Positions 37,243 through 62,518 of a stretch of 64,000 nucleotides of DNA are shown here, piece by piece. Position 1 is the stretch's first letter. Every line of letters starts with the position of its first letter. The position numbers and the translations under genes were made by a program. The DNA lies in assembly GCA_009829735.1 (NCBI GenBank), contig CM020618.1:23793346-23857345 (forward strand). Direction: 5' to 3'. The notes beneath the pieces were generated by a model. That model did not search any database and was not told where the DNA came from. It worked only from the letters and a program-made list of their open reading frames with translations. This stretch comes from Pyropia yezoensis. Lineage: Eukaryota; Rhodophyta; Bangiophyceae; Bangiales; Bangiaceae.

Positions 37243-37246
37243 TATT

Positions 37247-37263
37247 TGGTGGAGCAGCAGGGG
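37247..37263 (+). other. B putative primer-binding site
   Basis: TGGTGGAGCAGCAGGGG begins four bases after the LTR. It is identical to the site in family A although the LTRs differ. An in-frame ATG follows at once at 37,264. Confidence 0.7.
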
Positions 37264-37452
37264 ATGATTGGAGTGTTTGAGAAGAGACATTTGGGAGCAG
37301 CGGTTGGGTTGTTCCTGTTCTGTCTTTTTCTGTGGTTTGGGAATTATTTGCACCCGTTCACGGGAATCCCATTCCTGGCTCTCCAACCCCTCTCTTGTGG
37401 TCTGGCGATCTTTGGGCACGCAGGCAACTGGACTGGCTGTCAAGAGACCAAC

Positions 37453-39213: not shown

Positions 39214-40563
39214 GGCAGGCGCTCTCCCCAAGCGTCTTCCCGAATCTCCAACGGCAGGGTACTTCTACCCGTTCTCCCCTTGCGTACCGGGAGAAAGGAC
39301 GGCAGTTACCCGCTCAACCGGTAGCCGCCTGGACACCCTGTTTGTTCAAGGGGACATTGCTCGTCCTGCGTAAAGAAAACCTCAAGATTAATGCTCGTAT
39401 GCGTGTGGGGGATAGCCTCCCCCAAGCTGTTACGCCGGTGGTTGACACGGGAGCCGGACCAAGCGTCATCACTGAGAACCTGTTACCTCCGGGCTGGCGT
39501 CGACATGCCTGGAGAGCGCCTACCCGGACCCATATCGTCGACGCTTCGGGTCAAACCCTACGACCGCTTGGCCGTCTTCCTGTCGCCATCTATGTCAACA
39601 ATGAACCAATGCTTTTTCCCTTTCTAGTAGTCAAGACCCTATCAGTCCCCCTCATCCTAGGCTGGGACTTCCAGAAGCAGCATGTCAAGAGCATCCTACC
39701 CGGAGAAGGGAAGGTCCAGTTCAACCATGGGTTTGTGTCACCGGTATTGGAGCATCTGGACGCCAAGGTTCGTGTAGCCAAGAGCAGGAGGGAACGCATC
39801 CCACCCTCTACCTTGACTCTCTTCAAACCGGTGCTCCTACCTCCTCGCTCGGAGACCAAGGTTCAAGTAACGACCCGGATTGCAGGTCAATGCCTGATCT
39901 ACGGACGTAAGGAATTTCTGGCGAATCACCGGTTATACTTGGCCAACGGACATCACAAGAAGGTAGAAAGGCACACCCCGTTCTCGGTGCTAATCGTCAA
40001 CGTGAGCCGGAAGCCAATAACCCTCGCCAAGGGCACCCGAGTTGGTACAGCAGAGCCTTACCGGGGATCCGCCCGTGCTATGAGCAAGGAAGACCTCCTG
40101 AACCTGCAACAAGAACTGGCATCCAACTTGACGGCCTTAGACGTACCTCCGAAACAAGAGCAGGCTGGCAGCGCTACTCCGAAACCCGAACAAGCACCAC
40201 CCGGGATGCCGAAGGTCAAGCAAGAAAATGTCCCTCCCGACTTGAAGGAGGCACTGGAGAAGCTTCTCCAGGAATATCGGCACCTGTGGTCGGGAGAGCT
40301 GGGCAAGATGGACGCCACTCTACACCGGATTCAACTCAAGCCGGAAGCTAGGCCAGTGCACATGCAACCATATCGGGCCGGACCTCATCGCCGGGATGAG
40401 ATTGAGAAGCAGGTTAACAAGATGCTCAAGATGGACGTTATCGAGCCGTCTGATGGCGAGTGGGCTTTCCCGGTGGTAGTCGTCCCGAAAACCGGCGGTC
40501 ACTTCCGTTTCTGCGTTGACTACAGGCGCCTGAACGAGATGACAGTCAAGGACGTATACCCGA
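39208..40563 (+). pseudogene. pol: B pol, 5' part (protease and start of reverse transcriptase), split by A2
   Basis: It is read by -1 shift from gag. The aspartic protease has VVDTGAGPSVI (GAC at 39,444) and, later, PLILGWDF. A linker leads to the reverse transcriptase N-terminus (MDATLHRIQLKPEARPVHMQ, DVIEPSDGEWAFPVVVVPK, FRFCVDYRRLNEMTV). It breaks at DVYP where element A2 enters; the frame resumes at 49,942-49,947. Confidence 0.9.
40559..40563. repeat. Target-site duplication CCCGA, left copy (element A2)
   Basis: CCCGA precedes the A2 5' LTR and is repeated at 49,942-49,946 directly after the A2 3' LTR. Confidence 0.95.
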
Positions 40564-41031
40564 TGTGGCAGTATTGACCCCCAGGTAGGGGGCAACACGT
40601 GCCATGCAAGGGGCGGCAGGCCACTAGCCTGATCCGTTCCTCCCCCTGCATTTGGGTCCATATTCCCTAAGTTCGGGATAGTTAGCTTAGTAGTAAATCC
40701 AACTTGGATTTGAGGGTTTTCTGCATTTATCGTCTTGAATTTTCGTGTGGCCCGGTGGGCAGGTGCTGGGGTGGGAGATTCTGAGTGGCGAGATTCTGAG
40801 TGGACCCTGGGGGGATAAGGGGAGGGACAGCGGGGCTTGGCCCTGCGTCCCCGTCCCGACCAAGAAACTGTTGGACCACACACCATCATCTTGTTTGTCC
40901 GTGGGGGGATTGCCCCACAACAGGGATAGAGTGCGTGCGACTTGCACTTCTTCCGGTTCCCCCGACACGGGAGGCAGCCCTCGCACACCGCCCCAACTTG
41001 GGTACTGTGTGTGCGAGTGGTTTTTGCCACA
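40564..41031 (+). repeat. A2 5' LTR (468 bp)
   Basis: Ends are TGTGGCA and TGCCACA. It differs from the 3' LTR only at GTGCGTGCG against GTGTGTGCG as far as I can see. Confidence 0.96.
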
Positions 41032-41033
41032 TT

Positions 41034-41050
41034 TGGTGGAGCAGCAGGGG
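41034..41050 (+). other. A2 putative primer-binding site
   Basis: TGGTGGAGCAGCAGGGG, two bases after the LTR, identical to that of A1 and B. I could not match its complement (ending CTGCTCCACCA) to a known tRNA from memory. Confidence 0.7.
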
Positions 41051-41150
41051 ACAGAGGTAAACTTTACCTCCGGGTGCACCCGGGTGTAGGGGGCCCTCTG
41101 TCTCAGAGGAACGGTGGACTTGGACCGTGTCATACGGATCGTTAGCCAAC

Positions 41151-43097
41151 ATGGCTAGCTCGGACCCCCCGTCGTCCGGGGAGTACGCGGGTGACGCACG
41201 TACTTCAGTGCCTTTGAATACTGGTGAGACACAGGTGGGTTTACCTGGGGTCGCAGAGGGACTAGAGGTCCCTCAAGCCAGCAGGACTGGAAGTGCGGGC
41301 GGGCAACAGGCCACCCCGACTCAGTCGGGAGTTCACTCGGGTGACACTTCTGACGTGGGTGGGCCGAAGTCTGGCCACCGCGTGGTATACTCAACGGGAA
41401 CGTCCCAAGGGGTGAGGACTGTCCCCGCGAGTTCCACTCGGGTTGGAGCCAACTTTGGCATGGAGCCATCGCCAACTAGGCTTTCGGAGGACGGCGGACC
41501 TCCGTTGGTCGGCGATGGGCTCGCGCCCATGCCCCCGGTTGAGACCCCTGAGGAACGTGGTTACCCCTCAGGTGGACTCCCGGAGGCGGACCGAGACTCA
41601 ACTGGAGTCGTCAATCCACTCCTCGCGGAAACTGTCCGTCGGGAGGCGACCAACGTGTTGCGGCAGACTTTGCCGGACCTGGTGGTCACGATGACGAATA
41701 CTATTCTGAATCAGATTGTAGCGAGTTTGCCAGAAGGCCTGAATGTCCAGACCGGATTGGGGCTTTCGAGCCCACAGGCGCAGGGGGAATCCCTCCCCAC
41801 GCCTATCTCGGGTCGCCCCGAACTGGGGGCGACACCTGTGACTCCCAACGAGGGAGCCACACCATACGCGGTGGGGCGTACGCCCTTCACGGGGGAGTTC
41901 CCCTCGGAAACGCCGGCGGCTACACCAAGCTCGCCGTACCAGACTACAGGCACTGAGGGTGGACATACCCCAGTGCCACAGCGGCTGTTCCCTCAACGTG
42001 AGGTGCCGCCCAAGATTCAGGTAGCCAACCCGGTCTACCAGCGGATCTTTGACTGTGAGACCTACGCTCTCCACAACAAGTCGGTGGCGTATGGTCCTGA
42101 CCAGGCCCGAGCTATGGGCCGTGCCAAGAAGAATGCACTTCATTCTTTTGGGCACAGAGCGGAGTGGGATGGAACTCCCCCCCTCCGTGTCTTTGAGTTC
42201 CTACGTCGTTTCACAAAAGCCTGTGACGACAATGCCATAAGTGAAGGCATGGCTTTTTACATGCTACAGGAGTTTACGAAGGGAGACCTGCGGACAGAAC
42301 TTATGTCCGTCATGCCCAGCTCCTCAAGTGGAGGCGCTGGGGAGGTGACGTCCTATTTGGAGCTCGTCAACTGGTTGTTGAGGGCCATGGTTGATGAAGC
42401 GGCGTTGGCTTCTCAAGTCGAGGAGTTTACGCAAGCCCATCAGGAAGAGGCGGAGGACGAGTTGTCCTTTGCGGAGCGAGTCCGTAAGCTCAACAATCTT
42501 TGTGGGTTTCTTCATCCACAAGCTGTGGTGAAGAGTCGGTTTGTGGAAGGACTCCACTGGTCAGTCCGGATGGAGACCCGGGAGCATAACACTGCCCGGG
42601 CGACCCTGGCCGAGTTGGCTAGGTTCGCCTACCGCAGAGGCGAGGCCTACCGCAAGTTGCGGGAAGAACAACGCCAGGAGCGTCAGGCCGAGTTGGCCAA
42701 GGAACGGGAAGAGGCGCGCCAGGCCAGAGAGTTGCGAGAGGCACGCCGAATCCGCAAGGAGAGGGTGGTAGCTGCCGTGGGAACTTCCCAAGGTACCTCG
42801 TCGTCTTCCCCAGTTGGGAAGACCCCTCCGGGAACTGATCATCGGTGTTGGAACTGCAACTCCGATGGTCACTGGGCATATGATTGCCCCAAGTTGAGTA
42901 AACGCATCCAACAGCTTGTTAGGAATGCGAGTAAGAAGTCGGCTACGAACGAAGTGCGTTCACGCCGCGAGGGTGGGTCTCGACCAGTGGTGGCGGTCGC
43001 CACACCCTCGACGGAGGGGGCGGACACGTCGTCCTCGGACTCGTCGTCGTCCCCTTCGCCCTCAGATTCGGACGCCAAGTCGGCGGGAAACGAATGA
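41151..43097 (+). CDS. gag: A2 Gag polyprotein
   Basis: The product has 648 residues from the ATG at 41,151. The N-terminal 290 residues are Pro/Gly/Thr-rich with one helical patch (LLAETVRREATNVLRQTLPD). The capsid-like region has VFEFLRRFTKACDDNAISEG, YLELVNWLLRAMVDEAAL and FAERVRKLNNLCGFLHPQAV, colinear with B Gag. A charged helix (REEQRQERQAELAKEREEAR) precedes the zinc knuckle CWNCNSDGHWAYDC and an acidic Ser-rich tail. The stop TGA overlaps an ATG in the pol frame (ATGA). Confidence 0.93.
   Translation: MASSDPPSSGEYAGDARTSVPLNTGETQVGLPGVAEGLEVPQASRTGSAGGQQATPTQSGVHSGDTSDVGGPKSGHRVVYSTGTSQGVRTVPASSTRVGANFGMEPSPTRLSEDGGPPLVGDGLAPMPPVETPEERGYPSGGLPEADRDSTGVVNPLLAETVRREATNVLRQTLPDLVVTMTNTILNQIVASLPEGLNVQTGLGLSSPQAQGESLPTPISGRPELGATPVTPNEGATPYAVGRTPFTGEFPSETPAATPSSPYQTTGTEGGHTPVPQRLFPQREVPPKIQVANPVYQRIFDCETYALHNKSVAYGPDQARAMGRAKKNALHSFGHRAEWDGTPPLRVFEFLRRFTKACDDNAISEGMAFYMLQEFTKGDLRTELMSVMPSSSSGGAGEVTSYLELVNWLLRAMVDEAALASQVEEFTQAHQEEAEDELSFAERVRKLNNLCGFLHPQAVVKSRFVEGLHWSVRMETREHNTARATLAELARFAYRRGEAYRKLREEQRQERQAELAKEREEARQARELREARRIRKERVVAAVGTSQGTSSSSPVGKTPPGTDHRCWNCNSDGHWAYDCPKLSKRIQQLVRNASKKSATNEVRSRREGGSRPVVAVATPSTEGADTSSSDSSSSPSPSDSDAKSAGNE
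43085..43091 (+). promoter_or_regulatory. -1 ribosomal frameshift slippery site, gag-pol of A2
   Basis: GGGAAAC is phased as G GGA AAC, followed by GAA TGA. Pol lies in the -1 frame. The alternative is stop-restart at the ATGA overlap (43,094-43,097); conservation of the heptamer in B, which has no such overlap, favours frameshifting. Confidence 0.75.
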
Positions 43098-46000
43098 CCG
43101 TTGGAGCTGGTCGTCCGAAGCTCACAACGGCAGCCTCGGCCAAGTGGGCCAAGAGGACGAACCAACCGTGTCGGATACTGCGGCGACCTAAGGGAGTCCG
43201 CCCACCTCGGGTGGGACTTCCCAAGAACGTAAACCCACGTCGGGTCATCGCGGTGCTGACGGGTGAGAACTTCCAGGTGGCTGGACGGGTGCAACTCGCC
43301 CCCGGCCGCGCCTGTTGTGCCCGTATCGTACTTGATACCGGGTCAGGAGCCTCCTTGATACGCAAGTCGCTATTACCAAAGGGGATGAGGCTCCAACGCT
43401 GGAAGTCTAAAGCTGACCATCTGATCGATATCAATGGTGGGGTACTTCCCATCGTTGGTGCCGTGACCCTACCAACTCGGTTGGGGACCCATGAGGTCGA
43501 CGTGACCTATGGTGTAGTTGAGAATATATCGGTACCCCTGCTTCTGGGTACCCCTTATGTCGTAACACAAGTGCCTTTGATTTGTGGCCCTGAGTACTGG
43601 GTCAAGTTGATGAATGGGGAGACTATCCCCATCCTTGGTAAGGGAAAGTCTGTGGCTCCTGTGACAGTCTCACAGTCGAAGCCTGTTTGTTCTGTGAGGG
43701 AAGGGTTTACTGCTACTCTGCGTTTAGCCCGTAAAGTCATGTTGCCCCCCAACTCGGTGGCGCACGTGGATGTTGTAACTGATTATGCGGGGAACGGGTT
43801 GGTGCACCCTAACCCCCGTCTTGCTCGCAAGCACCAAGTGCATGTTGCCCTTGGCACGATGGACTCCAAAGCCGGAGTCCCGTGGAGGATCCAGGTGATG
43901 AACCTGAGCTCGTCGCCCAAGTTCTTCAAGTCGGGGGCCAAGTTCGGCTATATCGACCAACACGAGGGACCGGTAGTAGCGGTCACCCTCAGCGCGGGCG
44001 CAAGTAGCGACCCGAAGTCCGGAAAGGAGAAGCATCAAGCCAAGTCGGCCGCCTCTCCTCGGCCCCAGGTAAACATGGAGGGTGTTCCACCCAGGTTGAG
44101 GGTTCAAGTTGAACGCCTCTTGGACCAATATCACAAGTTGTGGGATGGTCAATTGGGACTCATGAGAGCTACCCAACACCGGATCGAGTTGAAACCCGGT
44201 GCGCCCCCTATACGCCAACAACCGTATAGGGGGGGACCCCGTTCAAGGGCCCTCGTTAAGGAGCAAGTTGCTCGCATGGAGGCCCTCGATGTGATCGAGG
44301 CCAGCAACGCCGAGTGGGCGAGTCCGGTGGTGATCGTCCCCAAAGTTGATGGGACCCCCCGGTTCTGTATCGACTACCGTAAGCTCAACGAGAGCACGGT
44401 GAAGGATAGTTATCCCCTACCTCGGATGGATGACTGTCTGGACTCTCTGGGGGAGGCGAACGTGTTCTCTACCCTGGACTGTAACGCGGGGTACTGGCAA
44501 ATTCCCATTGCCCCGGAGGACAGGCATAAAACTACCTTTACCTGTCACTGTGGTACCTACCAGTGCAAGCGTCTACCGTTTGGCCTGTGTAACGCGCCGA
44601 CAACTTTCCAGCGCGCTATGGACATGATTCTGGCCGGAGTACGGTGGCAGATCTGTCTCGTGTACCTAGACGATATCATTGTGTTCTCCCGAAGTCCGGA
44701 GGAACACATTGGCCATCTTGGCCAGGTGTTCAAGCTACTTGCTGACGCCGGAGTGTCACTGAAGGCGAGTAAGTGCCACCTCTTCACTCAAGAGGTGGAG
44801 TACTTGGGACATGTTGTCCGTCCGGGGCGTCTCAGTGTCAACGAGAAAAACTTGAGGGCCATCCGCAAGGCTCAGTACCCCCGGACCCAGACCCAGATGA
44901 GGAGCTTCCTCGGGATGTGTAACGTGTACCGACGTTTCACTAAGGGCTTCGCCAAAGTGGCGAAGCCGTTGAATGAGTTAGTGAGCTCAACGCTACCGAA
45001 GAACCTGCCTCCCCCAAGTCGGGTGGAGCAGGAATCCTTTGAGACTCTTCGGGACCTTCTGCTGAAGCCCCCTATCCTGGCTATTCCCAGGTTGGGAGGC
45101 CACTACATCCTGGATGTGGACGCTAGCTACGACCAACTTGGTTGTGTGTTGCTTCAGCAACAGCCGGACAAGGAGTACTTGCCGGTGGGATACTTCAGCA
45201 AGGGGCTAAACTCGGCCGAGAAGAACTACGGAGTCACCGAGTTGGAAGGACTCGCAGTGGTATGGGCGGTGACGTCACTTCGTCACTACCTAGAGGGTGA
45301 GAAGTTCCTCATCCGCTGTGACCACCGCGCGTTGCAGTTCATCTTCAAGACGGACTGTACGAACACTCGTCTCAACCGGTGGAGGGTGCGACTTGCACCC
45401 TTCAACTTTGATATTGAGTACCGACCTGGCAGGCAACATGCCCTTGCCGACGGCCTCTCTCGGGTACCTACCGAGGGACTGGACACCACCCCAGTCGATG
45501 AGGACATCCCCATCGTGGGGGTAGTCACGCGCTCGGGTCAGGCGTTGAATCCCGAGGCGCCAGGGAACAAGAAGTACTTGCCCCTGTCCCTGGACGAGGT
45601 GGTGAAGGCCCAGGCCGAGGATCCCTTCTGCAAGTCGCAGAGGGATATACTGGATACGGTGGTTGAGACGCGCTTCTTTCTGGGAGACGATGGCCTCCTC
45701 ATGAGGAGGGGGGTATTCCAGGGGACCGAACAACTTGTCGTCCCCGCATCCCTCAAGGACAGTATCCTTGAGAGGGAGCATAACGCTCCCACGGGTGGAC
45801 ACCTGGGGTCTAGTAAACTGTACCAGACCCTGAGGACCAGGTACTACTGGCCGTCCATGGTGGTGGACATCTACAGTTGGGTGGCTGCCTGCACAAGTTG
45901 TGCACAGAACCGTCTGATGGAACGGCGGCCTACTACGGCTATGCTATTGTTCCCGGCCAAGGAGCCCTTCGCCGCGTTGGCGATGGACATCCTTGGGCCA

Positions 46001-47077
46001 CTGCCAGTGACCGAGGAGGGCAACCAGTACCTCCTGGTCATCTGTGACCGCTTCACGAAACTTACGCGAGCGATCCCACTGGCAGAGATCACGGCCATGT
46101 CGGTCGTGTCAGCCTTCCTAGATCACTGGGTTGCCGCGTATGGCATCCCAGATAGTACACTATCGGACAATGGACCGCAATTTGCGTCCGTACTGTTTCA
46201 GGGAGTGCTGGATATGTTGGGGGTTAAGGCAAACTATGCCACCCCCTACCACCCACAAACTAATGGGCAGGTGGAGCGCTTCAACAAAACTATTGTTAGG
46301 CAGCTGCGCCATTATGTGAGTGAGCACGTGAAGACGTGGGACCAATACATTTCTATTCTGACCACTGCCTACAATTCGCAGGTTCACTCATCTACCGGGG
46401 AAGTACCCCTCGCTTTTGTGACCCCCCGTCGCGTGCGGTCTATTGCCGTGCGGCGGCCGCTCCCAACTAGGGAGGATGGTGGCAGTACGCCCACTCCTAC
46501 TGAGAGTAAGGCGGAGTTCGCTGCTAGGCTTGAAAACCTCATCCCTAAAGTCAGGGCTGAGATGGACAAAGCACAAAAGCGCTACAAGCGTACCTTTGAC
46601 AAAAAGGTGCGCAACGCCAAGCATGTCCCCGAGCAGGGTGACTGGGTATTGGTCCACTCACACACCCCAACTGGGGGTAAGTTGGTGTTCCAGACGAAGG
46701 GGCCGTACCAGGTCCTTCGTACTGATGGGCGGCGCTTCACCATCGAAAGTGACGATGGGGTCCGCACAGTGAACGGACAGGACGTGGTCAAAGTTGCACC
46801 ACCGCCTGCAGGCGACCCAGCTTGGGCGCGTGCTTTGAAAACGTGGCGCCTGCCCTCGCTGCCTGCAGCCAAACAGGGCCCGCAGGAGTACGTGTTCGAC
46901 AAGTTCATCGACCACGGCTGGGATGAGGATACTGACCGCCTCATGTTGAGGGTGCGTTGGTTTGGCTACAAAGCCAAGGATGATACGTGGGAGTATGTGG
47001 AGGACCTTCCTGCTGAGAAGGTCCGGGCGTACTGTGCCCGGAACGAGATAGACCCTAACAGCCCTCCCTCAACGTGA
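43094..47077 (+). CDS. pol: A2 Pol polyprotein with chromodomain
   Basis: The frame has 1,327 codons. The aspartic protease has LDTGSGASLI near residue 81 and LLLGTPYV. The reverse transcriptase has LDCNAGYWQIP (Asp462) and YLDD (from residue 524). RNase H starts near residue 674 with LDVDASYDQ. The integrase has an H-H-C-C zinc region (HNAPTGGHLGSSK, CTSC) and the catalytic triad Asp965, Asp1025, Glu1061, spaced D-59-D-35-E. A GPY/F-like segment (KGPYQVLRTDGRRF) and a C-terminal chromodomain (LRVRWFGYKAKDDTWEYVED) follow. The chromodomain places it in the chromovirus branch, whose integrase targets marked chromatin. Order protease-RT-RNaseH-integrase is that of Ty3/gypsy. Confidence 0.97.
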   Translation: MTVGAGRPKLTTAASAKWAKRTNQPCRILRRPKGVRPPRVGLPKNVNPRRVIAVLTGENFQVAGRVQLAPGRACCARIVLDTGSGASLIRKSLLPKGMRLQRWKSKADHLIDINGGVLPIVGAVTLPTRLGTHEVDVTYGVVENISVPLLLGTPYVVTQVPLICGPEYWVKLMNGETIPILGKGKSVAPVTVSQSKPVCSVREGFTATLRLARKVMLPPNSVAHVDVVTDYAGNGLVHPNPRLARKHQVHVALGTMDSKAGVPWRIQVMNLSSSPKFFKSGAKFGYIDQHEGPVVAVTLSAGASSDPKSGKEKHQAKSAASPRPQVNMEGVPPRLRVQVERLLDQYHKLWDGQLGLMRATQHRIELKPGAPPIRQQPYRGGPRSRALVKEQVARMEALDVIEASNAEWASPVVIVPKVDGTPRFCIDYRKLNESTVKDSYPLPRMDDCLDSLGEANVFSTLDCNAGYWQIPIAPEDRHKTTFTCHCGTYQCKRLPFGLCNAPTTFQRAMDMILAGVRWQICLVYLDDIIVFSRSPEEHIGHLGQVFKLLADAGVSLKASKCHLFTQEVEYLGHVVRPGRLSVNEKNLRAIRKAQYPRTQTQMRSFLGMCNVYRRFTKGFAKVAKPLNELVSSTLPKNLPPPSRVEQESFETLRDLLLKPPILAIPRLGGHYILDVDASYDQLGCVLLQQQPDKEYLPVGYFSKGLNSAEKNYGVTELEGLAVVWAVTSLRHYLEGEKFLIRCDHRALQFIFKTDCTNTRLNRWRVRLAPFNFDIEYRPGRQHALADGLSRVPTEGLDTTPVDEDIPIVGVVTRSGQALNPEAPGNKKYLPLSLDEVVKAQAEDPFCKSQRDILDTVVETRFFLGDDGLLMRRGVFQGTEQLVVPASLKDSILEREHNAPTGGHLGSSKLYQTLRTRYYWPSMVVDIYSWVAACTSCAQNRLMERRPTTAMLLFPAKEPFAALAMDILGPLPVTEEGNQYLLVICDRFTKLTRAIPLAEITAMSVVSAFLDHWVAAYGIPDSTLSDNGPQFASVLFQGVLDMLGVKANYATPYHPQTNGQVERFNKTIVRQLRHYVSEHVKTWDQYISILTTAYNSQVHSSTGEVPLAFVTPRRVRSIAVRRPLPTREDGGSTPTPTESKAEFAARLENLIPKVRAEMDKAQKRYKRTFDKKVRNAKHVPEQGDWVLVHSHTPTGGKLVFQTKGPYQVLRTDGRRFTIESDDGVRTVNGQDVVKVAPPPAGDPAWARALKTWRLPSLPAAKQGPQEYVFDKFIDHGWDEDTDRLMLRVRWFGYKAKDDTWEYVEDLPAEKVRAYCARNEIDPNSPPST

Positions 47078-47188
47078 GGGAAGGCCGAGCAACAGTGCCA
47101 AGAGAGTGCTTCAAGTCGAAGTGGTACGCAGAGTGGCTTTAAACTACAGCCCTAACCCTCACACTCTCACAACAAAGGCAGCTGCCAA

Positions 47189-49132
47189 CTAGGCACGCAT
47201 GCTAGACTCTCCCACTCCACGGCCCTCGCCCTCACGTGGAGGCGAGCGGCGAGACCCACGCCGATAACGGTCTCCACTCGTTGGAAGGGGCGGCGGCTCC
47301 AAGTCGGAACCGTCGCGCCCCTCACGGTCGCGCAAGTGGCGCCGACCGTGGCTACTCTTCTGCCTGGTCTTGCGCGCAAGTTTGCGACGCAGACGCTGGA
47401 CAGACTCCGTCTCCGATGGGGTAGAGGACTCCGAGACGGAGTAAGACAACTCGTCTTCCGACACGGAGGGAGAGCGCCGCGAGTGACGGCGACGACGGCG
47501 AGGAGGCGAGTATGCCCGGCTCCCACGACGCTTGCCACGCCCAAGTGGGGTTGGCTGGGGCATAATAGCCCCAATGCGAGCCAACTCGGCCGTCATAAAC
47601 TCCGCCACCGACTCGCAACTCGCGGTCGCCACTGCAGTACGAACGCGCTCCTCAAGTTGAGGAGTCTCGGAACTTTGGAGGGTTGCGGTCGACGCGGCCA
47701 ACCAGGAAATGGTGCGCACCAACGTGGTGATCATCATCTCTGAGGTTAGAGGCGTGGGCGGTAACACCAACTTGGGGTATACCGTCAGGAGGGTGGCCCC
47801 CAAGTTGGGAGACACCGGTGTGGATGACTCCACGGCCACGCTGATCGGGATGTTCCCGTGAGGCTGGAAAGGAACAGGAGGAAGCGGAGGGGCACGCCGA
47901 GGTGGCGGTACCCGGGTGTAACTGCGACCCCGACTTGGGGCCCCCGCAGTAGGTTGAGTCATATGGTCATCATATGAGGGCACAGCCATAACTATGGGCT
48001 TGTCCGGGGGTGGCGCAGTGTGACGATCCACCCCCGGGGCATACGGGTAGTCCCCGATGCCCAACCCCTCTCGTAGGACCACACGGCCGTCGTGAAGTTC
48101 ACGAGCGACCCATACGAACTGGCGAAGTGCGCCATCGTCCTTGGGCCCCCGAGTGGGGCGGCGCAACTTGTGCTCAATGCTCTCCCACTCGATAAACTTG
48201 TGGAGGCGGAGCATCTCCTCAAGTAGAGTGAGTTGTCCTGACGAGCACCCCTCAGCAACTAGCTGAGGGGTGAGCTGTTCCAAACCCTGGATGAGCCGGA
48301 GGGGGAGATGCCAGAGCATCCCCCGCCGCTGAACACATGACACCCAGGTCGACATGACCTCGAGGAGCCACTGGGTGGCCAACATGGCCCACACCAGATG
48401 ATCAGGGCCAGCCGTCAACATGACGGAGCCGAAGTGGTCAAGCAACCGTGGCAACAACGCCGGGAACCCGTAGGGGACCTCAACTTGAGGCCACCACTCG
48501 GGCTTCTTCGGGTAGTATTGCTCCTTACTGGCAGCAGACTGCTGAGGAAACTCAAGTTGAGCCGAGGTCACCAAGTAGGGACCTCGCCGGAAGTCCTTCT
48601 CCATCCGCACATCAAAGTGATGAGTGTGCGGATCGGCCTCGTGAAGGTACGGGGGGCGAGTTGCCACCGCGTCCCAAGTGAAGGTCGGCAAGTCGCCGGG
48701 ACCCGGGATAGTTCCCCCGCGGTCCACCATGGCCTTGGCCCGCTGCACGTCCTCGACCTCCTCGTCGTCCAGGAAGGCAAACTGGTCCGTCCTGAAGCCG
48801 GCAGGGAACCCGACCCTACGGGGATACTTCTCCCGTAGGCGGTCCCATACCCGACCCATCGCTGCGCCGAGTCGGCCACAGCGAAGAACAGTCAACCCCT
48901 CCTCATACAGAGGCCAAGCGGGGTAAAACCACCGCCCCAAGGCCTCACGCGGGACAACTTGTCCCGCCTCCGGGGGAGATCCTGCCGTCAACCCAAAGCC
49001 GGGTGACGCGGGAGTCCCACCCCCCGGAGCGATCGCGGAGCCCCCGCCGGAAGTCCCGGCAGGCGCTGCACCGTAGGAGGTGTCCTCCATACGCTCATCG
49101 AGAGAGTCCGTCTCCACTCCCGGAGTCGCCAT
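47189..49132 (-). CDS. A2 antisense protein (aORF), unknown family
   Basis: The product has 647 residues from the ATG at 49,132 (GCCATGGCG) on the strand opposite to gag-pol, between pol and the 3' LTR; the stop codons of pol and aORF are 111 bases apart. The middle part looks folded and helical: PYLVTSAQLEF, EQYYPKKPEWWPQVEVPYGF, AMLATQWLLEVMSTWVSCV, LTLLEEMLRLHKFIEWESIE, GALRQFVWVARELHDG. It is followed by a Pro-rich segment and a second helical patch (MMITTLVRTISWLAASTATL). The tail is Arg/Ser-rich (RRRRRHSRRSPSVSEDELSY), like an RS or nucleic-acid-binding domain. No membrane segment and no known domain are seen. The core aligns with the B antisense protein, and the frame is conserved in A1, so it is selected for. 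The promoter is unknown; it may use the 3' LTR in reverse. Confidence 0.8.
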   Translation of the reverse strand: MATPGVETDSLDERMEDTSYGAAPAGTSGGGSAIAPGGGTPASPGFGLTAGSPPEAGQVVPREALGRWFYPAWPLYEEGLTVLRCGRLGAAMGRVWDRLREKYPRRVGFPAGFRTDQFAFLDDEEVEDVQRAKAMVDRGGTIPGPGDLPTFTWDAVATRPPYLHEADPHTHHFDVRMEKDFRRGPYLVTSAQLEFPQQSAASKEQYYPKKPEWWPQVEVPYGFPALLPRLLDHFGSVMLTAGPDHLVWAMLATQWLLEVMSTWVSCVQRRGMLWHLPLRLIQGLEQLTPQLVAEGCSSGQLTLLEEMLRLHKFIEWESIEHKLRRPTRGPKDDGALRQFVWVARELHDGRVVLREGLGIGDYPYAPGVDRHTAPPPDKPIVMAVPSYDDHMTQPTAGAPSRGRSYTRVPPPRRAPPLPPVPFQPHGNIPISVAVESSTPVSPNLGATLLTVYPKLVLPPTPLTSEMMITTLVRTISWLAASTATLQSSETPQLEERVRTAVATASCESVAEFMTAELARIGAIMPQPTPLGRGKRRGSRAYSPPRRRRRHSRRSPSVSEDELSYSVSESSTPSETESVQRLRRKLARKTRQKSSHGRRHLRDREGRDGSDLEPPPLPTSGDRYRRGSRRSPPREGEGRGVGESSMRA

Positions 49133-49252
49133 GGCTCTCCCCAAGTTGGGGAGAGACGTCCTGGCTATCGCGGCACGAGACCCGCCTCGAGTTGAGGGGG
49201 ACTCGGATCGTGGGTAAACGGGTGGCCTCCCCAGCGTGGGGTGGCCCCGTGT

Positions 49253-49266
49253 AAGGTGAAGGAGAA
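49253..49266. promoter_or_regulatory. 14-mer shared upstream of both antisense genes (A2 copy)
   Basis: AAGGTGAAGGAGAA (plus strand) lies 121 bases upstream of the antisense ATG. The same 14-mer lies 32 bases upstream of the B antisense ATG. On the antisense strand it reads TTCTCCTTCACCTT. It could be an antisense promoter element or an extra purine tract for plus-strand priming. Confidence 0.35.
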
Positions 49267-49460
49267 GTGGTGGTGGTGGTGAGGTGTGAACCGAGGAGAG
49301 CAAGCTGCCAAGTGGGCAAGCTTGAGGAGAGGGGCGGCCAACGTGACCGCCTCCACATCCGCGTTACGTACTCAAGGGGGGACAGCAAGTCGCGTCCCCC
49401 CCAACGCCGAGACGTGCGTTTACGCACCCCCTCACAGGGCCGACCGGGTCGGTCGGAACT

Positions 49461-49473
49461 GAGGAGAGGGGAG
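49461..49473 (+). other. A2 polypurine tract
   Basis: GAGGAGAGGGGAG abuts the 3' LTR, the expected place and composition for the plus-strand primer. Confidence 0.8.
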
Positions 49474-49941
49474 TGTGGCAGTATTGACCCCCAGGTAGGG
49501 GGCAACACGTGCCATGCAAGGGGCGGCAGGCCACTAGCCTGATCCGTTCCTCCCCCTGCATTTGGGTCCATATTCCCTAAGTTCGGGATAGTTAGCTTAG
49601 TAGTAAATCCAACTTGGATTTGAGGGTTTTCTGCATTTATCGTCTTGAATTTTCGTGTGGCCCGGTGGGCAGGTGCTGGGGTGGGAGATTCTGAGTGGCG
49701 AGATTCTGAGTGGACCCTGGGGGGATAAGGGGAGGGACAGCGGGGCTTGGCCCTGCGTCCCCGTCCCGACCAAGAAACTGTTGGACCACACACCATCATC
49801 TTGTTTGTCCGTGGGGGGATTGCCCCACAACAGGGATAGAGTGTGTGCGACTTGCACTTCTTCCGGTTCCCCCGACACGGGAGGCAGCCCTCGCACACCG
49901 CCCCAACTTGGGTACTGTGTGTGCGAGTGGTTTTTGCCACA
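49474..49941 (+). repeat. A2 3' LTR (468 bp)
   Basis: Nearly identical to the A2 5' LTR (one difference by eye), which indicates very recent insertion. It is followed by the target duplication CCCGA. Confidence 0.96.
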
Positions 49942-52684
49942 CCCGATACCCCGGATGGATGATTGCCTCGACTTTCTTGGTGATGCCACCCTCTTCTCGA
50001 CACTGGATTGTAATGCCGGTTACTGGCAGATCCCTCTGGCTGACGAGGACAAGGACAAGACCACCTTCACGTGCCACCTGGGACTATTCCGGTGCAAGCG
50101 TCTTCCTTTTGGTCTCACCAATGCTCCGGCCACCTTCCAAAGAGCCATCGACATCATCCTGTCCGGGCTAAGGTGGAGAACATGTTTGGTCTACCTGGAC
50201 GACATTATCGTTTTCTCCAAGACCCCAGCGGAACACCTGGAGCACCTTCGGGAGGTCCTGGCCCTCCTTTCCAAGGCTGGAGTTACCCTCAAGGCCGAGA
50301 AGTGCCACCTGTTTGAGACTGAGGTGGAGTATCTGGGGCATGTGCTGAGTCCGGGGGAGCTCCGAGTCAATGAGAAGAACATCAAGGCCCTCCGGCATGC
50401 ACGGCTACCCAAAACCCAGACGGAACTCAAGAGCTTCCTGGGTATGTGCAACGTCTATCGCCGGTTCGTACGGGACTATGCTCTGATTGCCCGGCCACTG
50501 ACCAAGCTGACCAGCAAGAAGCTTCCCGCACAACTCCCGGTGTTCGACGAGAAGCAGACCGCGGCCTTCGAAGAGGTCAAGAAGCGCCTGACCACCACTC
50601 CAGTACTGGCGTTACCCAAGCGGGAGGGCCAGTTTGTTCTGGAGACGGATGCCTGTGGCGTCCAGGTGGCGTGCTCACTACTCCAGCAGCAACCTGATGG
50701 GCACTTTCTCCCGATAGGCTACTACAGTCGCGTCTTGACTCCAGCTGAGAAGAACTATTCCACGACCGAGCGCGAGTGCTTGGCAGTCGTCTGGGCTTGC
50801 TTCCTGTTACGGCCATATCTTGAAGGACAAGAGTTCCTCATCCGGACGGACCACGCCAGCCTAAGGTGGCTGCTATGTATGGACAGCAGTCAAGGAAGGG
50901 TCGCCCGGTGGCGCCTACGCCTTTCGGAGTTCAAGTACAAGGTGTGCACCAAAGCAGGGAGGGAGCACCACTGCGCCGACACCATGTCCCGGCTGGAGAC
51001 TCCTGCAGCCGATACCGGTCCTATCCCGGAGGAAATACCTTGCTTCAGCCTCCCGAATGTCGGACGTGGCTGGCACGCTCCCCTGTATGAGACACCTGAA
51101 GCTCATCAACCGGTGACCATTCACCGGATGCTGGAGGCACAACTGACGGACCCTCAATGCTTGGAGCTTCGCCACCAAATGGACCTGAACCGGAACAGTC
51201 GCTTCTCCGAGTCTACGGACGGACTCCTAGTACGGGTGTCACCCTTCGATGGGGCCACTCAAGTCTACGTACCCCGGGGCCTACGAGCTGACATCCTACG
51301 CCTGGAGCACTCGTCTCCCCAGGCCGGACATCCTGGTATCAATCGGATGTATGCTTCCATGAGACGACACTATTACTGGAAAACCATGGCCAGTGACGTC
51401 CATAAGTACCTGGAGGCTTGTGTTTCTTGTGCAAGGAACCGGTTGTCCCAGAGGAAGAAGACTTCTAAGCTACGCCTATTCCCTGCGGCGGAGCCCTTTG
51501 CAAGCTTAAGCATGGACAGCCTGGGGCCCCTACCTGAAACATCCAGTGGCAACATATACCTGCTCATCATATGTGACCGGTTCTCCAAGTTTACTCGAGC
51601 AATCCCGCTGAGGACCATCACGGCTCTGGATGTCACGTCAGCCTTCTGCGAGTACTGGATAGCTGCCTACGGCCCTCCAGACTCCGTCTTAACCGACAAC
51701 GGTCCCCAGTTTGCATCCCTGTTCTTCCAAGGAGTCTGTGACCTGATGGGCATCAAGAACTTGTACACTACGACGTACCACCCTCAAACGAACGGCCAGG
51801 TGGAACGATTCAACCGGACCCTAGTAGACATGCTACGGCACTACGTGGAGGAGCACCAAGAAGACTGGGACGAGCTCCTGGCTGTCCTCACTCTAGCCTA
51901 CAACTCCCGAGTTCACCGGACAACGGGGGTCGCTCCACTCGACTTTGTCACCCCAAGGCGGCTGACCAACTTCTCCCTGGAAAGAATACCAGACGGTCTC
52001 CAGCCTGCACTGAAGTCAGGTCCCAAGGCAAAGGATGAGTTCCTGGAACAACTGAAGCTCCTGCTCCCAAGAGTCAAGGAGTCAATCTCGAAGACCCAGG
52101 AGCGATACAAGCGGGGCTATGACAAGGGCGTTCGGGAAAAGAACAAGGAACTGGGTGGTGGCGACTGGGTTTTTGTGGACAACCATAGCAAGACCCGGGG
52201 GAAGCTGGACTCGAAGACGGATGGACCTTATGAGATCCTGAATACGGACGGTTGGACCTTTCTTCTAGACGTGGATGGCTCCCCGTACCGCGTGAGCAGC
52301 GACCATGTCACCCGAGCTCCACCGCCAAGCCAACGGGACTTGACCCGGCGCAAGCGGGCCGCAGTACCCTGGCTATCCCAAGAAGAAGGTCGGGAATATG
52401 TCTACGTCAAGTTTGTGGACCATGCCTGGAGAGACGGACGCCTGTACCTGCGAGTACGCTGGTTCGGTTTTAACCCGGCAGATGATACCTGGGAACCCTC
52501 AAACCGGCTACCCATCGCGGATGTCTGTGCCTACACGCGACGGAACGGGATAGAGGGCACTCCAGTGGCGAGAGCCGGCAAGATTCTGGAGTCGGACTCG
52601 GAGGAGGACCAAGAGGATGGGGCCAACCAAGACCCTCGGGACGAGCCGAGTTCATCCGCAACGGATGCGGAACAAGAGGATTGA
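49942..52684 (+). pseudogene. pol: B pol, 3' part (RT, RNase H, integrase, chromodomain)
   Basis: It resumes the B pol frame broken at 40,563. It has LDCNAGYWQIPLADED, YLDD at 50,192, RNase H ETDACGVQVACSLLQQ, an integrase zinc region (HSSPQAGHPGINR, CVSC) and catalytic Asp (51,515), Asp (51,695) and Glu (51,803), again spaced 59 and 35. The chromodomain is LRVRWFGFNPADDTWEPSN. A hydrophilic acidic tail ends at 52,684. The only lesion found is the A2 insertion, so B was competent until then. Confidence 0.93.
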
Positions 52685-52829
52685 GAAGAAGGGAACGGGT
52701 ATATCAAGGAGAACACGCAATACAAGCATGGAACAATCAAGGAAAACAAGCACCCGCTCGGGCAACCCTTCTCTCCGCCTCTTCCCTCCTCGCTTCTCCC
52801 AAGACATTCACCCTCCTTGCCTCCAACTA

Positions 52830-54947
52830 CTACTCCCGGCGCGGACGCTGAGCCGCAGGAGTGTCCTCCAGCGCTGCCTCCGCGGCATGACGGGAACCGG
52901 AGGAAGACGGGATGACGTAGTGCGGTGGACGCGGTGCATCCCGGTATGACGCCATCGGAGTAGTACCGATAGTTGCCGGGGGCTCCCGCTCATCCAGATA
53001 TGCCCGTCGGCGCCCCTGGAAGCCAGTGAAGGCTTCTGACCACTGCTGGGCCAAGCCATGCCGCGTCAAGGTCGCTAGAAGTTCGCCAACCACCGGGCTG
53101 TTCGACATCTGGCCGCTGTCCGCGCAAGCAAACACCCGGTCGACCACGTTGTTCAAGACGCTGGCGTAAGTACCCAGCACCAGGGAGGACCCAACGCCTT
53201 CGACCTGCACCGGAAGACGACCCAGCTGGTCTTCAATCATACCGACGTCGTACTGGTCGCGTGTCCGACCACCTTGGATCAGGTACCAGTCAGGCACCCG
53301 GAAGCGGGTAAGGCGCAGAATCGGCGCCGGAATCTCGAACCGCCCCGAGGATGACACTACCGGACGGTCCACAACGGCCCCAGAAACCGGAGTACCCAAC
53401 TCCAGCGGAGGCACAGCGCCGCCGGCGTTGGAAGAAGGCGTCCGAGGCGGAGCGGCCAGAGTGGTAGGCGACCGCACGGCAACTCCCAGACTCGCTGCGG
53501 ACAAGCGCGGTGCCGGAGGAGCTTGAAGTACCGGCACAGCCGGAACGGGGCGCAAACGCGCCGGTGACGGTTCAGGCGAGGCCACCGGGGCGACAGGTGC
53601 AACAGGAGGAAGCGGAGCCGCCGCAGACGCCTGACCGACCGCCGCGGCCCATCCCGACTCCTGCACCGGCGGCCCAACTGGCAGAAGATCAAGGGCGGGC
53701 GGGGAAGGAAAGCTACCTAGCTGCGGCCACGCCGGAAGCGGCGTCGCCAGCTGCACCTTGGCCGGAGAAGACTGGTAGACCACCTGCGCCCAACCGAAGC
53801 CATCCCGACGCGGGCGGTTCTGGTCGGCAATCGCGTTCATGAAGTTCCGGTCATGCACCGGCACCAGACGCCGGAAGTCAATCATCGCCCGGAAGAGCCC
53901 CTTGTACTCTTCGTCCTGGCTGCACAGGAAGTCGACGGTCAACTTGTCGACAGTCCAGACCATCAGGAGGTCAGGGAGAAACCAAAGCCGGTTGGACACC
54001 AAGACCTCGTGAAGCCAGTGGTTGGCCGCCAAGACTGTCATCTCGGACGTGTACATCATGTACGGGATCGAGTAAAAGAAGCCCTTGATCGACGCCTGAG
54101 TCAAGGCGTCCAAGAAGTACCAGGTGAAAGGGATGCTGGAAGGAGCAAACCCGACCGGGATCTCGACTTCCTGCTGCTGCGGGATGACCTTGGGGTAGTA
54201 CGCCGCCCGGTTAGCCTTGTCCAGCTTCCAGAACTCCTGATGGTTGCAGCTCACGAGGAAGTCACGCTGACGCCCGCGTCGCTCACCCTGCTCCCGTGCC
54301 GGTGACAACTTGGAGTACTTCCGGGTCAGGAAAGGCGGCTCCAGAGCGACCATGCTCGGACGGGGGTCGCAGTTCAGGCTCCCCGACCCCTTGAGCGCCT
54401 CGTCCCAGACCTTGAGCGCCCGGTGGACGTACCCTTCCTCCTCCGGCCACCGGAGAACGGACGCGGACACGCGACGCTCGGTCAAGGGTAGATCCAGCAC
54501 CAGCGCGAAGGGGAGATCCTCCAGACGAGCTACCCAAGAGGAGCCCGAGAAGCTCTGGGAGCGGTCTTGTGCCAGGCGCATCTGGTCCGCCGTGTGAATA
54601 CGAGCCTTATCCATCTCTGTCACGACCCCGCGCTGGAGTTCCTTGCGCCAGAGGTCCAAGCAATCCTGCTGGCACTGGGCCGCGCCGGCGTTGCCGACCA
54701 CCGTGGAGTAACGCCGGGCCGCCAGAGGGTCCTGCCCAAGAAGCATCTCCGGGAGACCCACCGGGGGGGTCTCGACCGGGTGCATCACAGAAGCCGGGGG
54801 AACCCGATCCGTCCCCGCCGTGGCGACCGGCGCCGACATCGACACCCGAGGAACCGGAGGCAGGAGAGGGGCGCGACTACCCGAGTTCTCCTCCGCAACA
54901 CTCGCCGCCGGAACCACGGGCCCAGCTTGGATCTCGGAACTGGACAT
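52830..54947 (-). CDS. B antisense protein (aORF), homologous to the A2 antisense protein
   Basis: The product has 705 residues from the ATG at 54,947, on the opposite strand between pol and the 3' LTR (145 bases from the pol stop). The frame stays open to 55,139 in the LTR. The core aligns with the A2 antisense protein: DFLVSCNHQEF against PYLVTSAQLEF, AAYYPKVIPQQQEVEIPVGF against EQYYPKKPEWWPQVEVPYGF, AANHWLHEVLVSNRLWFLPD against ATQWLLEVMSTW, and RRDGFGWAQVVY against KDDGALRQFVWV. The C-terminal half is Pro/Ala/Val-rich with a further folded-looking part (RFRVPDWYLIQGGRTRDQYD, LVLGTYASVLNNVVDRVFAC). It lacks the Arg/Ser tail of A2. No known domain, signal peptide or membrane segment is visible. 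Confidence 0.8.
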   Translation of the reverse strand: MSSSEIQAGPVVPAASVAEENSGSRAPLLPPVPRVSMSAPVATAGTDRVPPASVMHPVETPPVGLPEMLLGQDPLAARRYSTVVGNAGAAQCQQDCLDLWRKELQRGVVTEMDKARIHTADQMRLAQDRSQSFSGSSWVARLEDLPFALVLDLPLTERRVSASVLRWPEEEGYVHRALKVWDEALKGSGSLNCDPRPSMVALEPPFLTRKYSKLSPAREQGERRGRQRDFLVSCNHQEFWKLDKANRAAYYPKVIPQQQEVEIPVGFAPSSIPFTWYFLDALTQASIKGFFYSIPYMMYTSEMTVLAANHWLHEVLVSNRLWFLPDLLMVWTVDKLTVDFLCSQDEEYKGLFRAMIDFRRLVPVHDRNFMNAIADQNRPRRDGFGWAQVVYQSSPAKVQLATPLPAWPQLGSFPSPPALDLLPVGPPVQESGWAAAVGQASAAAPLPPVAPVAPVASPEPSPARLRPVPAVPVLQAPPAPRLSAASLGVAVRSPTTLAAPPRTPSSNAGGAVPPLELGTPVSGAVVDRPVVSSSGRFEIPAPILRLTRFRVPDWYLIQGGRTRDQYDVGMIEDQLGRLPVQVEGVGSSLVLGTYASVLNNVVDRVFACADSGQMSNSPVVGELLATLTRHGLAQQWSEAFTGFQGRRRAYLDEREPPATIGTTPMASYRDAPRPPHYVIPSSSGSRHAAEAALEDTPAAQRPRRE

Positions 54948-54978
54948 GACGTCCAGACTCCGGGGGAACGAGAGGGCC

Positions 54979-54992
54979 AAGGTGAAGGAGAA
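54979..54992. promoter_or_regulatory. 14-mer shared upstream of both antisense genes (B copy)
   Basis: AAGGTGAAGGAGAA, identical to 49,253-49,266 in A2, in a region otherwise without nucleotide identity between the two families. It is 32 bases upstream of the antisense start. Confidence 0.35.
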
Positions 54993-55118
54993 TGGGGGGG
55001 GGCAGAATCGAAGCAGGTGGTCGTAACCGGGGTGAAGACGCTCGACCTCGGCACCGGTGTGGACGTGCTCGAGGCTGTGCACGGTGGCACCTGGTTCGGC
55101 CGGAGGACGCGCCGGACT

Positions 55119-55131
55119 AGGGAGGGAGCTA
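55119..55131 (+). other. B polypurine tract
   Basis: AGGGAGGGAGCTA abuts the B 3' LTR; purine-rich except for the last CT. Confidence 0.65.
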
Positions 55132-55702
55132 TGTAGCATCCCTGGCCCCGACTTGGCGCCGACCCGGGACTACAACCAGAGGGCACCAGGTGCCAGAACA
55201 CGCCCGCCGTGTGGTGATGGTTGGCGGCCGTGGCCCGTGCCCGGCACTGGGATGCGGCGGACTACGCTATCCACACGTGAGAGAGGGATTTCTGATGGGT
55301 TTTTGCATACTTGTGAGGGACTTGATTTGAGAGAATTTGAGTGTGAGATTAGTGGGTGGGAGTAGAATTAGTAGTGATAGTGGCCCCCGACCTGACGAGG
55401 TTAGACTCGGGTCGGGGCCACTCGGGGTTATGGGGGGGCTACCTGGCCAACGTGCCGAGGTTCCCCCAGATGCACGTTAAGAGGGACAGCGAGGCGCCCT
55501 TGGCCCGCGCCCTCAGGAAAAAGACAACTGCGCGTTTGCTTTCCTCTTCCCCGTGTGCACTACCGTGCGTATCTGTTTGCTCTGCGAGCAGGCACGTGAG
55601 GCAACAGGCATACCATTCTCGTAGTTCCCCTTTCTGTGTTACCTGTCCCTTTCCCCCAAGGGATATTGACATGTGTCTGAGAGGATCGAGTTTTATACCA
55701 CA
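55132..55702 (+). repeat. B 3' LTR (571 bp)
   Basis: Same length as the B 5' LTR, with one difference by eye. It is followed by GGAAT, the right-hand target duplication, and then by the rest of A1 gag. Confidence 0.95.
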
Positions 55703-55707
55703 GGAAT

Positions 55708-61105: not shown

Positions 61106-62518
61106 CTAGGCATGCATGCTAGACTCTCCAACCCCACGGCCCTCGCCCTCACGTAGAGGCGAGCGGCGAGACCCACGGCGATAACGCTCCCCACCAGTCG
61201 GCGGGGCCGGCGGCTCCAAGTCGGACCCGTCGCGCCCCTCACGGTCGCGCAAGTGGCGATGACCGCGGCTGCTCTTCTGCTTAGTCTTGCGCGCAAGTTG
61301 GCGACGCAGACGCCGGACCGACTCCGACTCTGACGGAGTCGAGGACTCCGAGACGGAGTAAGACAACTCGTCTTCCGACACGGAGGGAGAGCGCCGCGAG
61401 TGTCGGCGACGACGGCGAGGAGGCGAGTATGCCCGAGTCGCTCGACGTTTGCCACGCCCAAGTGGGGCTGGCTGGGGCATAAATGCCCCAATGCGAGCCA
61501 ACTCGGCCGTCATAAACTCCGCCACCGACTCGCAACTCGCGGTCGCCACTGCAGCACGAACGCGCTCCTCAAGTTGAGGAGTCTCGGAAGTTTGAAGGGT
61601 TGCGGTCGACGCGGCCAACCAGGAAATGGTGCGCACCAACATGGTGATCATCATCTCTGAGGTTAGAGGCGTGGGCGGTAACACCAACTTGGGGTATACC
61701 GTTAGGAGGGTGGCCCCCAAGTTGGGGGACACCGGGGTGGATGAATCAATGGCCACGCTAATCGGGATGTCCCCGTGCGGTTGGTAGGGGACAGGAGGAA
61801 GCGGAGGGGCACGCCGAGGTGGCGGGACCCGGGTGTAACTGCGACCCCGACTTGGGGCCCCCGCAGTGGGTTGAGTCATATGGTCATCATAGGACGGCAC
61901 GGCCATAAATATGGGCTTGTCCGGGGGTGGCGCAGTGTGGCGATCCACTCCCGGGGCATACGGGTAGTCCCCGATGCCCAACCCCTCTCGTAGGACCACA
62001 CGGCCGTCGTGAAGTTCACGAGCGACCCATACGAACTGGCGAAGTGCGCCATCGTCCTTGGGCCCACGAGTGGGGCGGCGCAACTTGTGCTCAATGCTCT
62101 CCCACTCGATAAACTTATGGAGGCGGAGCATCTCCTCAAGTAGAGTGAGTTGTCCTGATGAGCACCCCTCAGCAACTAGCTGAGGGGTGAGCTGTTCCAA
62201 ACCTTGGATAAGCCGGAGGGGGAGATGCCAGAGCATCCCCCGCCGCTGAACACAAGACACCCAGGTCGACATGACCTCGAGGAGCCACTGGGTGGCCAAC
62301 ATGGCCCACACCAGATGATCAGGGCCAGCCGTCAACATGACGGAGCCGAAGTGGTCAAGCAACCGTGGCAGCAACGCCGGGAACCCGTAGGGGACCTCAA
62401 CTTGAGGCCACCACTCGGGCTTCTTCGGATAGTATTGCTCGTTACTGGCAGCAGACTGCTGAGGGAACTCAAGTTGAGCCGAGGTCACCAAGTAGGGACC
62501 TCGCCGGAAGTCCTTCTT
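61106..62518 (-). CDS. A1 antisense protein, 5' end cut off by element C
   Basis: About 470 codons remain, colinear with residues from KDFRRGPYLV to the end of the A2 antisense protein. No stop or frameshift has accumulated, unlike gag and pol of the same copy. Differences seen are mostly conservative (VMAVPSYDD to FMAVPSYDD, PFQPHGN to PYQPHGD, AVESS to AIDSS, RKLARKTRQ to RQLARKTKQ). The original start is lost where element C begins at 62,519. Confidence 0.8.
   Translation of the reverse strand, partial: KKDFRRGPYLVTSAQLEFPQQSAASNEQYYPKKPEWWPQVEVPYGFPALLPRLLDHFGSVMLTAGPDHLVWAMLATQWLLEVMSTWVSCVQRRGMLWHLPLRLIQGLEQLTPQLVAEGCSSGQLTLLEEMLRLHKFIEWESIEHKLRRPTRGPKDDGALRQFVWVARELHDGRVVLREGLGIGDYPYAPGVDRHTAPPPDKPIFMAVPSYDDHMTQPTAGAPSRGRSYTRVPPPRRAPPLPPVPYQPHGDIPISVAIDSSTPVSPNLGATLLTVYPKLVLPPTPLTSEMMITMLVRTISWLAASTATLQTSETPQLEERVRAAVATASCESVAEFMTAELARIGAFMPQPAPLGRGKRRATRAYSPPRRRRRHSRRSPSVSEDELSYSVSESSTPSESESVRRLRRQLARKTKQKSSRGHRHLRDREGRDGSDLEPPAPPTGGERYRRGSRRSPLREGEGRGVGESSMHA

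Follow-up and report, generated by a model that had tools for sequence, protein, structure and literature searches.

Long terminal repeat (LTR) retrotransposons sometimes carry an additional open reading frame (ORF) between pol and the 3′ LTR, on the strand opposite gag-pol. The accessible part of PMC7264820 lists maize Grande, rice RIRE2, Silene Retand, PvRetro13 and the fungal element Boty, and describes the antisense protein of Grande as nuclear and as having its own promoter. For Retand, a TRP28 domain is reported in 97% of clusters (PMC11963269, accessible part), and a plant survey describes extra-ORF proteins as highly heterogeneous, with 314 groups for Ty3/gypsy (PMC6317226, accessible part). 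Retroviral antisense genes with nuclear proteins, HBZ of human T-cell leukaemia virus 1 (HTLV-1) and APH-2 of HTLV-2 (PMC11963269, accessible part), offer an analogy only, and no homology to them is claimed. Here, we analyse the antisense ORFs (aORFs) of A2 and B, two Ty3/gypsy (chromovirus-like) elements in a 64,000-nucleotide stretch of the red alga Pyropia yezoensis (GenBank assembly GCA_009829735.1, contig CM020618.1, positions 23,793,346 to 23,857,345; hereafter the window, meaning the whole stretch). In this genome, 48% is predicted to be repeats, among which LTR retrotransposons dominate (PMC7423979, accessible part). The two frames are almost certainly separate genes, and their sequences place them in one old family, kept while pol, gag and the LTRs diverged.

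The closest described systems are the plant Tat/Retand-type aORFs (Transposase_28, PF04195; Grande gene23, RIRE2 and Retand), which also lie between pol and the 3′ LTR, are antisense, large and present in many copies, and have an unknown function. Retand elements differ in being non-chromoviruses, according to the accessible part of PMC11963269. PF04195 gave no match in the A or B proteins, in that of a further group C (see below) or in four members of the alignment designated A2, and none in the whole genome at E up to 10. Here, one core is common to families with pol or integrase 40–51% identical. We take Boty to stand near the chromovirus side of Ty3/gypsy. This LTR retrotransposon of the fungus Botrytis cinerea is alike in position and orientation (PMC7264820, accessible part) and is likened here by layout alone. 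An earlier note on this DNA had mentioned antisense frames in some plant elements, which is correct for Grande, RIRE2 and Retand, but such frames are known more widely, as Boty shows in the accessible part of the same source. No description of this antisense gene in red-algal elements was found among titles and abstract openings of the open-licence literature, which is not proof of absence. As far as seen, the kind of gene is known, and the protein family, the host group and the depth of conservation are new.

Results

Antisense frames with a fixed layout

Frames of 647 and 705 codons opposite gag-pol, between pol and the 3′ LTR, had been described in the earlier note, and both are present in A2 and B (Table 1) as long ORFs kept in many copies, the features that define this class. 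The remaining five frames of each region contain 9 to 30 stops, no sense stretch longer than 214 codons is open in either region, and the chance of such a long stop-free run is about 1e-8 from base composition alone. In A, the pol stop is followed by 111 bases, the aORF stop, the aORF, the aORF start, 341 bases and the 3′ LTR; the order in B is the same, with intervals of 145 and 184 bases. pol lies tail to tail with the aORF on the opposite strand in 59 of 60 A and B loci, and the piece of the last locus that was analysed contains no pol. The two stops are 111 bases apart in the 29 A loci; in B, the gap is 145 bases (144 once).

Purifying selection on the antisense frame

The ratio of non-synonymous to synonymous substitution rates (dN/dS) was obtained from 60 loci, which are the best matches to the protein, a choice that depresses dN wherever the match extends (the whole of B and the core of A). 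The unmatched parts of A, pol of the same loci and a comparison of A2 with A1, an A-family copy in the window that was not picked by the protein search, served as controls for this sampling. The alignments hold 30 of 30 copies for B, 29 of 31 for the whole A frame (A1 and one more were left out for coverage), 29 of 30 for A pol, 30 for the N-terminal and upstream parts of A, which A1 does not reach, and 30 of 31 for the C-terminal part (29 in the bootstrap).

For the B aORF, dN/dS is 0.255 in the 30 best copies by protein score, and the corresponding ratio of proportions (pN/pS) is 0.26 with a codon bootstrap of 0.20–0.36; the pol C-terminus of the same loci, with 0.288 and 0.29, respectively, is about equally constrained. 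Because the A copies were picked by their core, the fair test for A lies outside it, and there dN/dS is 0.17 in the N-terminal 62 codons and 0.21 in the C-terminal 279 codons (bootstrap pN/pS 0.06–0.42 and 0.13–0.33), with 0.13 for the entire frame. Between A1 and A2, the aORF has 46 synonymous and 26 non-synonymous changes over 469 codons, a ratio of about 0.19, without a stop, and pol has a ratio of 0.20 over 1378 codons with two stops in A1. dN/dS across copies is thus far below 1, including the parts of A not used for picking, and stops are infrequent: among the best matches listed, 48 of 63 B copies have none over 704–705 aligned codons and 129 of 129 A copies have none within the 306-codon query.

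The constraint follows the antisense frame. In B, four of the other five frames have dN/dS of 1.08 to 1.61, and the fifth has 0.33 but about 13 stops per copy. The low value in one sense frame (0.33 in B, 0.17 in A) is explained by register: the third codon positions of this frame and of the antisense frame occupy shared bases. Upstream of the A ATG, 77 codons have a dN/dS of 1.27; the 74 codons preceding the B ATG are open and give about 0.67 in the aORF frame (0.66 to 1.56 over six frames), and indels relative to the window copy occur here in 27 of 30 copies. Frame-specific constraint is absent upstream of both ATGs, which places both starts. The sense strand of the region is non-coding, both by its stops and by dN/dS per frame, which bears out the earlier argument that the frames are no shadow of another frame. 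As judged from their sequence, the A2 and B antisense frames are almost certainly separate protein-coding genes.

One family in at least six groups

The LTRs of A and B gave no match in the window self-comparison (at least 80 bases, E up to 1e-10), and BLASTP identities are 51% over 884 amino acids for pol and 29% over 321 for gag, in agreement with the unrelated LTRs and diverged pol described before. The previously proposed shared core of about 150 residues was recovered as an alignment of 166 columns with 23% identity (BLASTP E 2e-8), the score of which was reached by 0 of 1000 shuffles. Set against pol and gag, the antisense protein diverges about like gag.

To look past A and B copies, we used regions downstream of the reverse transcriptase (RT) in two other element families, from one of which groups C–F were reached. 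Group C (locus L066) has an antisense frame tail to tail with pol, of 1085 codons stop to stop, of which about 940 remain when counted from the first Met on the inner side of the apparent 3′ LTR boundary (set by eye), and its integrase is 40–41% identical to that of A and B. A search of the genome (107,475,971 bases, with three large contigs of 43.6, 34.3 and 29.4 Mb) with the C protein returned C itself in six copies (100% and 88%), the large group D (27–32% identity for the most part), group E near E 1e-6 and, at E 0.02–0.07, matches with the 724-codon frame typical of A. With D as query, we retrieved D copies of at least 46% identity together with C (E 8e-20), matches in groups E and F and, through residues 214–366, matches at E 2e-6 to 9e-4, many of them with a 724-codon frame; the best of these (L074, E 2e-6) has DNA 95% identical to the A2 gene and is thereby a verified A-family copy. 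The search with F recovered F subfamilies from 100% to about 37%, followed by matches with E between 5e-11 and 9e-9; among the latter, C2:31028155 falls on a B-like place. The search with E gave further members and reached C at 5e-8.

In pairwise BLASTP with a low-complexity filter, E was 1e-11 for A–F and B–F, 5e-10 for D–F, 3e-8 for A–D, 7e-8 for A–B, 1e-16 for C–D, 5e-9 for D–E, 1e-6 for C–E and 4e-5 for A–C. The scores of eight pairs (A–B, A–D, A–F, B–F, D–F, A–C, C–D and D–E) were never reached in 1000 shuffles. B–C, B–D, A–E, B–E, C–F and E–F have no direct BLASTP match at 0.05 and are joined only via other groups, and profile comparison of A/B with C/D/E was moderate (P 0.0004 and 0.00074; C alone 0.033). 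By these similarities, the antisense gene falls in at least six sequence groups (A–F) in this genome. It is present in the two families from which it was first described, but is not confined to them.

For linkage to elements, 57 listed C, D or E places were compared with 150 scored RT matches. A C or D aORF lies at most 8 kb downstream of the RT in 19 of the 150, always on the opposite strand, at 5161–5223 bases for six C and 3975–4006 bases for thirteen D; three more pairs have the aORF upstream, also on the opposite strand, beside neighbouring elements. By hand count, the 19 are among 27 RT matches that start at profile position 1, and the other eight have no listed match. None of the 19 RT-linked places belongs to group E, and for F, the 150 RT matches and 76 listed places gave two pairs with F downstream on the opposite strand, one upstream opposite and one downstream on the same strand. 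Another element sampled (L065) has an integrase 26% identical to that of A and B; 375 bases separate its pol from an A insertion, and no aORF match was seen in them.

Two RT pairs, C1:39368555/39374759 and C1:23119020/23125666, lie 6.2 and 6.6 kb apart on one strand, which suggests tandem elements too short for an aORF; gene-free element families may coexist. The C pol frame (L066 1–1920) extends beyond the chromodomain and there matches part of the DNA adenine methyltransferase family Dam (PF05869) at E 4.9e-7, scoring 30.0 bits where the cut-off is 28.1.

Protein features

The antisense proteins begin with a region rich in Pro, Gly, Ser and Ala, followed by a middle domain, and end in a low-complexity tail. 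The middle-domain alignment has one invariant Leu and one nearly invariant Trp. According to structure models the domain is probably helical; the better of two models (B core) is helical, and its final 80 residues, apart from the very end, have predicted local distance difference test (pLDDT) scores of mostly 64–90. A and C have a strongly basic tail that includes RS dipeptides (net +14 over residues 501–600 in A; +21 over residues 701–800 in C, where ten RS/SR dipeptides occur), which B lacks. The A, B and C proteins contain no CCHC pattern and no likely transmembrane segment (highest 19-residue hydropathy 1.2–1.3).

The absence of a known domain, noticed before, holds in Pfam: at E 0.1, neither A nor B matches a family, and with the limit relaxed to E 10, one of four members has a single chance-like match (ASTN_2_hairpin, 0.0085). 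PHROGs gave no match for four members and the PDB sequences gave two, at E 2.2 and 2.4. Searches of a protein database, two of them confined to the roughly 8000 candidates with the most words in common, brought up nothing beyond near copies (P0003, P0004) and a single relative of B at 42% (P0005), and none of the 74 pattern matches from a scan of prokaryote genomes was a relative. Two candidate identities were rejected. An Env-like third gene does not fit the opposite strand and the absence of a likely transmembrane segment. For a duplicate of Gag or capsid, there is no BLASTP alignment better than E 0.1, hhalign gives P 0.21 over 16 columns outside the core and the CCHC pattern is lacking.

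Nested elements in the window

The right half of the window is a nest, with A2 within B and B within A1 (Table 1). The A2 and B insertions are young, because each LTR pair differs by one base. In both pol genes RVT_1, RT_RNaseH, Integrase_H2C2 and rve score above their cut-offs, in that order, and the chromodomain PF00385 scores 19.4 (A2), 20.0 (B) and 20.3 bits (C), below the cut-off of 25.1 (E 0.0005–0.001). The open frame that holds the B pol part starts inside an A2 LTR.

Table 1 Features of the nested elements, in window positions (TSD, target site duplication).
Feature	Positions	Strand	Remarks
A2 aORF	47189..49132	-	647 codons (724 stop to stop)
Conserved core of A2 aORF	48128..48667	-	residues 156-335; aligned with B, C, D, E, F
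B aORF	52830..54947	-	705 codons (779 stop to stop)
Conserved core of B aORF	53808..54350	-	residues 200-380; model mostly helical, pLDDT 62
A1 aORF, 5′-truncated	61109..62517	-	without stop; protein match extends a few residues to 62533, into neighbouring LTR-like unit
Element A2, LTR to LTR	40564..49941	+	inserted in B; TSD CCCGA (5 bases)
A2 LTRs	40564-41031 and 49474-49941		1 mismatch in 468
A2 gag frame	41061..43097	+	CCHC zinc knuckle; Pfam profile search
A2 pol frame	42935..47077	+	RT, RNase H, integrase, weak chromodomain; Pfam profile search
Element B, LTR to LTR	36672..55702	+	interrupted by A2, inserted in A1; TSD GGAAT
B LTRs	36672-37242 and 55132-55702		1 mismatch in 571
B gag frame	37210..39213	+	weak CCHC knuckle (below cut-off); Pfam profile search
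Frame with B pol part right of A2	49649..52684	+	RT (from profile position 59), RNase H, integrase, weak chromodomain
Element A1	from about 35442, resumes at 55703		split by B

Despite their unrelated LTRs, A2 (41032–41045) and B (37243–37260) have a common sequence, TTTGGTGGAGCAGC, directly after the 5′ LTR, which is probably one primer-binding site. Among the best matches listed, 75 of 129 A copies have a core identical to that of A2 (top score), which suggests a very recent burst of the A family. A further LTR-like unit of about 367 bases (62518–62884), starting with TGTAGCA, begins where A1 breaks off inside its aORF. The same unit occurs reversed in another A copy (L065 3552–3917, 97%), and its presence in two A copies points to another element family inserted into A copies. 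Elsewhere in the window, an 838-codon open frame (19492–22008) contains a Hint module (PF01079, E 8e-11), and an 18-base tandem-repeat array lies inside open frames at 6722–7075, with related copies near 9539–9806 and 2528–2733.

Discussion

On balance, we lean towards one antisense accessory gene, of an undescribed protein family, with a single gain in an ancestor of a large clade of red-algal Ty3/gypsy (chromovirus-like) elements; it would have been passed on under selection since then, diverging at about the rate of gag. How it works can be proposed only tentatively. Transcription of the aORF would start at an antisense promoter within or close to the 3′ LTR, apart from the genomic RNA, and its protein may act in trans as an accessory protein of the replication cycle. 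The basic tails, together with the nuclear Grande protein (PMC7264820, accessible part), point to the nucleus or the nucleic acid of the element as the most likely site of action, with passage of the complex into the nucleus, RNA handling or element transcription as candidate tasks. Given that B has no basic tail, the more probable target of the shared domain is a partner protein or an RNA that all have in common, and the tail would add to this binding in some families. For the statement as a whole, a coding gene of one old family with an accessory mechanism, we consider the case evenly poised.

Several observations weigh against it. In A, the pol C-terminus is more tightly constrained (0.09 over 171 codons, same loci) than the aORF, whether whole (0.13) or in its unselected parts (0.17–0.21), and the first 100 codons of B are without clear constraint (pN/pS 0.55, bootstrap 0.23–1.96). 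B lacks a basic run (isoelectric point 7.2), hence some members may have no role in the nucleus or on nucleic acid, and no zinc-finger pattern is present in A, B or C. The fold prediction suggested earlier did yield a mostly helical B core, but the models are poor and the one searched has no convincing fold match. A simple TATA scan of the antisense strand upstream found none in A and one in B, 750 bases up in the LTR.

A by-product of sense-strand coding would account for the sense frame that mirrors the low dN/dS in both families; in this frame, however, each B copy contains about 13 stops and each A copy about 24, and no long sense stretch is open, so that we regard the explanation as refuted. 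The antisense transcript could also matter as RNA, through double-stranded RNA and silencing, with the long frame incidental. The convergent layout would indeed yield RNA complementary to the genomic RNA, but selection tracks the codons of the antisense frame and is not seen before the ATG, a pattern that largely refutes this possibility, and the protein similarity persists across diverged families, which makes an RNA role very improbable.

Among the explanations that keep a protein, we consider a self-limiting factor unlikely. A Gag-derived fragment of yeast Ty1 restrains copy number, and the aORF protein might restrain its own family, with selection keeping the gene because elements that overrun the host are lost. 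Expression apart from gag-pol would suit a regulator, and the families are numerous (at least 129 A and at least 63 B copies scored). The protein has no similarity to Gag, however, the burst suggested by the identical A cores implies little restraint, and a restraining gene would be hard to keep under such constraint in a selfish element. It is quite doubtful that the product is a second structural protein, as the earlier note had proposed, translated from a separate messenger and built into the particle: the size, the predicted helical middle domain and the Pro/Ala-rich flanks would fit, but there is no sequence or profile similarity to either gag, no zinc knuckle and no fold match, although the model is weak. 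A captured host gene, kept for a cellular activity that it brought along, is conceivable as an unrecorded algal gene, given that Pfam, PHROGs and PDB sequences hold no convincing relative. We judge it distinctly improbable, since the matches fall into repeat families whose identities are graded, and no single host parent is evident (matches far from a listed RT are untraced), and transduced genes are usually in gag-pol orientation (PMC7264820, accessible part).

For decades, the antisense ORFs of LTR retrotransposons have been on record with no function assigned, and the plant examples give the impression of having arisen independently several times. In the single 107 Mb genome analysed here, a recognisable core under purifying selection recurs in several families, in copies that are very young, and an old curiosity thereby becomes testable through the residues that are kept, the site of the antisense promoter and the binding partner. 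The aORF would also be a marker gene for the element clade in red-algal genomes. If a single gain in the ancestor of this clade is the true history, the aORF would be a standing third gene of the clade, like env in retroviruses but on the other strand.

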